Shown here: piece by piece, positions 2,186 to 2,338 of the stretch
How positions within the stretch are numbered: the first letter of the stretch is position 1
Layout of the letters: every line of letters begins with the position of its first letter
Assembly (NCBI GenBank): GCA_021780095.1
Contig: JAJXZK010000247.1
Location: 1 to 6,487 of the forward strand
Length of the DNA stretch: 6,487 nt
Direction: 5' to 3'
Origin: Acidobacteriota bacterium
GTDB lineage: Bacteria; Acidobacteriota; Terriglobia; Terriglobales; Acidobacteriaceae
Program-made: the position numbers and the translations under genes
The notes under the pieces: generated by a model
What the model was told of the DNA's origin: nothing
Seen by the model: the letters and a program-made list of their open reading frames with translations, nothing else
Database searches by the model: none

Positions 2186-2278
2186 ATGAATCGCTGTCTC
2201 CACAACATGCAAATGCCCATGCGAATGCCAATCTGTGTTTGCGGGCGGCTGTTTCTGGAGAGGCGAGCGATTTTATAG
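2186..2278 (+). CDS. Putative Met/Cys-rich leader peptide upstream of metY-metX
   Basis: A 30-codon frame starts with ATG at 2186 and ends with TAG at 2276-2278. An in-frame ATG at 2177 would give 33 residues. Met occupies positions 1, 8, 10, 12 and 14, with the run MQMPMRMP at 8-15, and Cys positions 4, 17 and 19. The remainder is ordinary and ends LFLERRAIL. A terminator-like hairpin begins 26 bases after the stop, and metY begins 98 bases after it. This order (short frame rich in the pathway's end product, terminator, biosynthetic genes) is that of a transcription attenuator such as those before trp, his or leu operons. Against it, no good Shine-Dalgarno sequence is present: GGTAGG sits too close to the ATG, so translation would be weak or near-leaderless. 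The Met run comes from a 12-base tandem duplication that could have arisen by chance. I do not recognise this peptide from any described leader. Confidence 0.4.
   Translation: MNRCLHNMQMPMRMPICVCGRLFLERRAIL
2206..2229 (+). repeat. 12-base tandem duplication inside the leader frame
   Basis: CATGCAAATGCC (2206-2217) is followed directly by CATGCGAATGCC (2218-2229), 11 of 12 bases identical. The unit length is a multiple of three, so the leader frame is kept and each copy adds two Met codons (MQMP, then MRMP). Confidence 0.85.
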
Positions 2279-2304
2279 TCCACCTCTGATCAGAAGATTC
2301 AGTT

Positions 2305-2338
2305 ACCCGCAGCCATCCGCTAGCGGGTTTTTCTTTTT
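2305..2338 (+). terminator. Intrinsic terminator/attenuator in the metY-metX leader
   Basis: The arm ACCCGC (2305-2310) pairs with GCGGGT (2323-2328). AGC (2311-2313) pairs with GCT (2319-2321), closing a CATCC loop, with A2322 bulged. A run of T residues broken by one C follows (2328-2338). It is a nine-pair, GC-rich stem with a U-tract, the standard Rho-independent form. It lies between the Met-rich leader frame and metY and points toward metY, with the AGGAG of metY starting 27 bases later. No complete gene on the + strand lies upstream for it to end, since the porter is divergent, so a role as an attenuator of metY-metX is the simplest reading. Confidence 0.7.

Follow-up and report, generated by a model that had tools for sequence, protein, structure and literature searches.

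The metY-metX locus and its leader region

The window, by which we mean the whole stretch of 6,487 nucleotides that was analysed, contains metY and metX on the forward strand. The first gene, metY (2377-3693), starts with GTG, is preceded by AGGAG at 2365-2369, and encodes an O-acetylhomoserine sulfhydrylase/homocysteine synthase that scores above the cut-off of the NCBIfam model PRK08248 and also matches TIGR01326. The second gene, metX (3705-4838), encodes a homoserine O-acetyltransferase (NCBIfam PRK00175, above the cut-off). Upstream of the leader lies a sugar porter gene (NCBIfam TIGR00879, above the cut-off) that is divergent to metY. These family names bear out an earlier, preliminary description of this DNA, which had placed metY-metX downstream of the leader and a divergent porter upstream of it. 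The end of the window (6023-6487, reverse strand) encodes ribosomal protein L17 with a C-terminal extension (TIGR00059, above the cut-off); the top-scoring NCBIfam model for this gene is a “sunset domain variant” exception model, which it matches below that model's own cut-off.

The leader frame of 30 codons (2186-2278, forward strand; ATG at 2186, TAG at 2276-2278) encodes MNRCLHNMQMPMRMPICVCGRLFLERRAIL. It contains five Met codons (codons 1, 8, 10, 12 and 14, the start included) and three Cys codons (codons 4, 17 and 19), just as the preliminary description had stated, and its putative control-codon run, MQMPMRMPICVC (2207-2242, forward strand), has a counterpart at the same place in 119 leaders. 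A second in-frame ATG is present at 2177; the closest relative, L117 (MetY identity 92%), keeps the start at 2186 only. Such a Met/Cys count is rare by chance: when region 2030-2376 was dinucleotide-shuffled 3000 times and forward-strand frames of 10-60 codons were scored, the internal Met count of the observed best frame (5) was matched in 3 of the 3000 shuffles and its Met plus Cys count (8) in 4, the observed best being the leader frame extended upstream, for example to the start at 2177. The window leader is thereby a short ORF rich in amino acids of the pathway, as is typical of leader-peptide attenuators, and its run does not consist of the contiguous Cys codons that define polycysteine leaders.

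An intrinsic terminator is located between this ORF and the first gene, as in attenuators. Its hairpin (2305-2328, forward strand) has nine pairs, formed by 2305-2313 with 2319-2328 and interrupted by one bulge, and is followed by the U-tract TTTTCTTTTT (2329-2338, forward strand), which was read from the sequence and recurs in relatives. The fold of 2176-2340 has a z-score of -3.2. A simple terminator scan also detects the hairpin, but with a chance expectation of 0.5 sites of this kind for 2000-2500, it is the conservation that makes the case for this terminator. The nine-pair hairpin and U-tract of the preliminary description were thus found in the sequence and are conserved in relatives.

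A likely promoter was read from the sequence at 2145-2174 (forward strand), consisting of TTGACA (2145-2150), 18 bases and TAACCT (2169-2174), which leaves a gap of 11 bases to the ATG at 2186. In relatives, a -35 box, a spacer of 16-18 bases and a -10 box recur just upstream of the ATG, often as TTGACA-N18-GATACT located 6-7 bases before it. When 120 leader frames were compared (including that of L097, see below), 96 had a -35 box matching in at least five of six letters, and 108 had a -10 box scoring at least 4, which was separated from the ATG by 6-7 bases in 79 of them, a count that is biased upward because the starts were chosen partly by promoter score. With the promoter so close to the ATG, many leaders look leaderless. 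The preliminary description had cautioned that both the ribosome-binding site and the -10 box of the window are weak. No ribosome-binding site is evident, which, given a promoter 11 bases before the ATG, fits a near-leaderless start; the -10 box is TAACCT, and a fixed-rule promoter scan of 2000-2500 listed no site.

Distribution of the leader and of SAM elements upstream of metY

Loci were collected by searching with MetY in 396 genomes of the phylum Acidobacteriota (the phylum of G001), of which 106 matched at E ≤1e-150, and in the order to which G323 (the then closest genome) belongs, where 130 of 397 genomes matched at E ≤1e-190, at 131 places. This resulted in 136 upstream regions, consisting of the window, L088-L105 (18), L117-L145 (29) and 88 further regions; 133 of them have more than 300 bases, and the MetY identity of the scored loci is 68-92%. 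Partial places in G654 and G634 were left out, and the sequence upstream of metY is too short in L119 and L102. In L089, a contig end interrupts the region, yet the same leader tail is visible. An earlier contig scan with MetY had given at least 80 distant loci (57-67% identity), which were of little use for the leader.

A region was scored as having a leader when it contained an ATG frame of 15-55 codons with at least four Met or Cys codons within 12 codons. This was the case for 120 of the 133 regions, compared to 12 of their reverse complements and 1-6 of the shuffled regions; after setting L097 apart, 119 of the 133 have a leader. Because these leaders were selected by having a Met/Cys run, the reverse complements and shuffles serve as controls, and the difference becomes sharper with the length of the run: at least five Met or Cys codons in 12 were found in 105 regions versus 5 reverse complements and 0-1 per shuffle round, and at least six in 90 versus none in either control. 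The 119 leaders contain 2-6 internal Met and 1-6 Cys each, which correspond to 14.5% and 9.8%, respectively, of 3446 residues. Their Cys residues are kept while both synonymous codons occur (TGC 197, TGT 140); the preliminary description had proposed to look for synonymous substitution bias. In the 64 leaders containing MAMC, which were picked by that peptide, the first Cys is encoded by TGC in 41 and TGT in 23 cases, and the Ala by GCC in 57 and GCT in 7. A terminator was found 18-42 bases downstream of the leader stop codon for 118 of the 119 leaders; for L147 it was not found in place, and this locus was left out of the duplex and folding counts below (n = 118). Relatives that keep the terminator but have lost the Met-rich frame had been named as evidence against an attenuator; instead, both are kept in 119 of the 133 regions.

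The other 14 regions lack a leader. Five of them (L097, L098, L100, L104 and L105) contain a SAM-II-like motif and nine contain neither; no leader or motif was seen upstream of metY in L095, L153, L187, L190, L196, L201, L206 and L209, and L225 has no leader or perhaps a decayed one. Conversely, a leader model built from 22 sequences gave 23 matches at E ≤0.003 in 150 genomes of the order, all beside metY, with weaker matches at E 0.02-1. No match was obtained elsewhere at E ≤0.003 in these 150 genomes that would extend the regulon beyond metY, using a model that is insensitive, missed the known G323 leader and is blind to Cys-only leaders. Genome G693 contains two metY copies (L151 and L157), each with its own Met/Cys leader, and may be a mixed assembly. 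At L040, from a genome titled Candidatus Eremiobacterota, the Met-rich frame MDARSMAIMAMCATREGRCRSSLP is present upstream of metY, followed by a hairpin with a T-run.

The preliminary description had seen no SAM-I or SAM-II core in the window, and this holds: screening the whole window against Rfam at E ≤1 did not reveal a match to any family, including SAM-I (RF00162), SAM-II (RF00521, RF01726) and T-box families, and the SAM-II core motif is absent from it. A riboswitch reading of the window was rejected on this basis. Likewise, 13 leader loci screened at Rfam gathering scores gave no match, SAM-I included.

SAM elements are present before related metY genes. We analyzed a distant set of 51 loci, composed of L106-L116 and the best 40 of 80 further places from the phylum search (MetY identity 56-63%). 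SAM-I (RF00162) was detected in 25 of the 51 (21 of the 40, plus L112-L115), none of which has a leader even when a run of 4 is accepted. Met/Cys frames were found in 7 of the 40 (L279, L285, L292, L295, L299, L300 and L301) and in L110 and L111; those of L279 and L292 lie outside the order and have Met but no Cys in the run. L106-L108 contain the SAM-II-like motif, and neither a leader nor a SAM element was found in the remaining 12 of the 40 and in L109. L116 has only ~93 bases upstream and is counted as “none” in the tree described below, although it is without data.

The SAM-II-like motif (GTGGCGATTT..CTTGCTCCAC..GCTAAA), which is followed by a terminator-like hairpin, replaces the leader in eight loci, five of the 133 (L097, L098, L100, L104 and L105) and three of the 51 (L106-L108). 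In scans at E ≤1, RF00521 matched L097, L098, L100 and L105 below its gathering score (E 0.006-0.44), and L104 has the motif only. Judged by its sequence, the motif is probably a diverged SAM-II branch; one exact form of the pattern was found in none of 150 genomes of the order. In L097, the SAM-II-like motif is preceded by a Cys-rich frame, MNNVTLKHKCMCCCRCRDTALTFA, whose end is ~246 bases upstream of metY; the two are a possible tandem of Cys leader and riboswitch. A Cys-rich frame, MMDGCSALMCCCLPAVVQVL, is also present upstream of metY at L079 of Mycolicibacterium rhodesiae, and the stretch after it presumably resembles a SAM riboswitch.

In a tree of 79 MetY rows, those with SAM-I are on one side of a fully supported branch, with the root not fixed. 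The SAM-II-like rows are among the leader rows, with inner support of 80/87 and 82/88, and L098 is separated from the remaining seven; nine changes of the leader label are required on this tree. The simplest reading would be that the leader was replaced within the larger clade to which the window belongs.

Pairing between the leader ORF and the terminator

The ORF sequence just past the Met/Cys run is able to pair with the 5' arm of the terminator. In the window, this putative antiterminator consists of a 5' strand, region 2 (TGCGGGCGGCTG, 2240-2251, forward strand), and a 3' strand, region 3 (CAGTTACCCGCA, 2300-2311, forward strand), which overlaps the terminator 5' arm. Both strands are backed by covariation, and they form the best duplex between the ORF and this arm (E -15.0), equalled by 1% of shuffled ORFs. 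Counted from the first base of the last Met/Cys codon, the best ORF/5'-arm duplex begins 1-14 bases downstream in 99 of the 118 leaders, versus 15.9% of codon-shuffled ORFs; when the terminator 3' arm was used as a control, the same place was reached in 53 of the 118. The duplex energies are modest: p 0.05 was reached by 44 of the 118 with letter shuffling (median 0.12) and by 49 with codon shuffling (median 0.075), and among the first 13 leaders, the duplexes of L101, L110 and L111 are no better than shuffled ones. The leaders have a mutually exclusive antiterminator positioned by the control codons, as known for attenuators, for which the energy alone is weaker evidence.

Covariation was analyzed in a close group of ten sequences (the window, L117, L118, L120-L125 and L088). 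The antiterminator is paired in 96.7% of the cells, compared to 31-54% for slid versions, and nine cells are changed on both sides, a number that, like the covariation score, was unmatched in 500 shuffles. Altogether, three of five measures beat all 500 shuffles and two do not exceed them (pairs with both-side change, 256/500; pair types, 379/500). The six outer terminator pairs form in all ten sequences, and of the five measures for the terminator, three were reached by 3 of 500 shuffles and two do not exceed the shuffles; few independent events underlie these counts for either structure. Examples are columns 57-126, where C-G becomes U-A in three sequences, and columns 66-117, where G-C becomes A-U in L117 and U-A in three; L117, the nearest sequence, has one double change relative to the window. 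Column 126 covaries with column 57 in region 2 and also with column 146 in the terminator 3' arm.

Folding predictions agree with a switch that depends on ribosome position. With a ribosome placed at the first codon of the run, 110 of 118 folds have half or more of the terminator 5' arm paired to the ORF; without a ribosome, 77 of 118 already do. For the window, the fold without a ribosome has a hairpin inside the ORF that hides region 2, and the terminator remains; a ribosome at the stop codon also leaves the terminator intact. When the ribosome is stalled at codon 8 before the 3' arm has been made, a long stem takes only three of the six outer arm bases. Once the 3' arm has been added, the terminator is energetically favoured even in the full-length stalled fold, so that the switch would have to be kinetic. 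Known attenuators switch kinetically. In leaders with region 2 beginning 1-14 bases past the run, 359 Met codons are located upstream of region 2, 283 of them at a distance of at least 12 bases from it, and this distance is also kept by 183 of the 273 upstream Cys codons; according to these models, stalls at Met or Cys codons alike could leave region 2 free.

Proposed mechanism and its relation to known systems

We propose, with a probability of roughly 85%, that the region upstream of metY-metX is a leader-peptide transcription attenuator of the trp/his type, as the preliminary description had suggested. The conservation in 119 of the 133 regions, the covarying antiterminator and the presence of SAM elements at the same place in relatives support it. 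The frame, its codon content, the terminator, the antiterminator, the spacing, the conservation and the identity of the genes are features of the DNA itself, to which the proposal adds, by inference, where transcription starts, that initiation is leaderless, that the ribosome stalls and which amino acid is sensed. The transcript would begin with the leader AUG or a few bases ahead of it, and the ribosome would load on its new 5' end. With an ample supply of charged Met-tRNA, and probably also of charged Cys-tRNA, the ribosome would pass the Met/Cys run and cover region 2 (2240-2251), upon which the terminator (2305-2338) would fold and transcription would stop before metY. When charged Met- or Cys-tRNA is short, the ribosome would stall in the run and leave region 2 free to pair with region 3 (2300-2311); this would hold the terminator 5' arm, no terminator would form, and metY-metX would be made. 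Counted against this proposal are the 14 of 133 regions without a leader and the pairing of ORF and 5' arm without a ribosome in 77 of the 118 folds, which blurs the default state. Moreover, Met starvation should also make initiation on the leader less frequent, so that a leader needing initiator Met-tRNA to start and yet reporting Met starvation presents a puzzle.

The amino acid sensed might be Cys rather than Met, as in the mycobacterial polycysteine attenuators, the Met codons being secondary. Cys is present in all 119 leaders, and the TIGR01326 family name of MetY includes cysteine synthase. We nevertheless consider this unlikely, because the Met codons of the window precede the Cys pair, whose second member overlaps region 2, because L279 and L292 outside the order have no Cys in the run, and because SAM sensors occupy the same place before related metY genes. 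Probably, Cys is a second signal besides Met, its codons being as regular in the leaders as those of Met.

It is less likely still that the sensor is a nascent Met/Cys-rich arrest peptide, which would stall on SAM, Met, a thiol or a metal ion, instead of responding to tRNA shortage, and would switch the same RNA downstream. In one subgroup, residues outside the run show partial conservation (CGPVRxALERRMR) beyond what plain attenuation would require. However, the CGPVR segment coincides with strand 2 of the antiterminator in L090, L091 and L093, and this overlap provides a reason at the RNA level for its conservation there. In addition, the order and length of the run vary (MQMPMRMPICVC, MCMCMCM, MAMIMRMSM), whereas its Met/Cys content is kept. 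We give even less credence to an untranslated ORF whose strand, together with the terminator, would form an RNA switch controlled by a protein or ligand. Consistent with such a switch, the ORF is predicted to pair with the 5' arm in 77 of 118 ribosome-free folds and no ribosome-binding site is evident, but frame, ATG, stop codon and Met/Cys content are kept despite the mixed wobble bases of the Cys codons. Finally, a chance frame beside an ordinary terminator, for which the 0.5 sites expected by the terminator scan would speak, is hardly credible in view of the covariation and of leaders in 119 of 133 regions compared to the controls.

Within the proposed attenuation mechanism, we lean towards a dual sensor of sulfur amino acids. 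Interleaved Met and Cys codons of a leaderless peptide would report both charged tRNAs, and Met supply would be read at two steps, first when translation initiates on the 5'-terminal AUG and again during elongation. Across one acidobacterial order, homocysteine synthesis would usually be controlled in this way; some lineages that branch within the leader-bearing ones would have swapped the leader for a SAM-II-like riboswitch, and SAM-I would occupy a MetY clade of its own.

In bacteria, the control of methionine genes is commonly attributed to SAM riboswitches, T-boxes or repressors. Upstream of genes of the metY family, SAM-I and SAM-II riboswitches occupy the position of the leader and presumably serve the same purpose; they differ from the leader in that they sense SAM directly and need no reading frame, and they were not found in the window. 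With the trp, his, leu and ilv attenuators of Proteobacteria and Actinobacteria, the metY leader shares a short ORF with codons for the product amino acid, competing antiterminator and terminator structures and a location before biosynthetic genes. It differs from them in its combination of Met and Cys codons and in its host phylum, the Acidobacteriota. A search of open-licence articles in PMC, which was not exhaustive, found no title or abstract describing a leader element of metY.

A leaderless attenuator is exemplified by trpL of Sinorhizobium meliloti, according to an excerpt of PMC10117765, and for the methionine operons of Actinobacteria, an excerpt of PMC1262725 states that no conserved RNA regulatory structures are present upstream. 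The mycobacterial polycysteine leaders (Canestrari 2020, as cited in an excerpt of PMC9031893) are leaderless short ORFs with codons for a sulfur amino acid that act by attenuation. As described there, they have contiguous Cys codons and belong to other genes and another phylum, whereas the metY leader has a mixed run led by Met. The kind of attenuation is already known, and a leaderless leader containing Met and Cys (MSTTSDRTPATEATTTPGARCMCRRMCAF), metL before metNIQ of Streptomyces lividans, has previously been proposed to act on methionine genes (excerpt of PMC8079986). The excerpt describes metL for one genome and a transport operon, calls termination unclear and reports no typical Rho-independent structure. 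In contrast, the metY leader precedes biosynthesis genes, has a terminator and an antiterminator, and is represented by 119 leaders.

What is new is the phylum, the complete terminator/antiterminator arrangement, the wide conservation and the exchange with SAM riboswitches. Bacteria with the leader probably sense a shortage of sulfur amino acids by the reading speed of the ribosome, and some of their kin use SAM-binding RNA. Few attenuators have been described in this phylum. Conservation of a translation-based sensor in one of its orders, at the position that SAM-I or SAM-II-like elements take in related genes, would permit a direct comparison between the sensing of SAM and that of charged tRNA.
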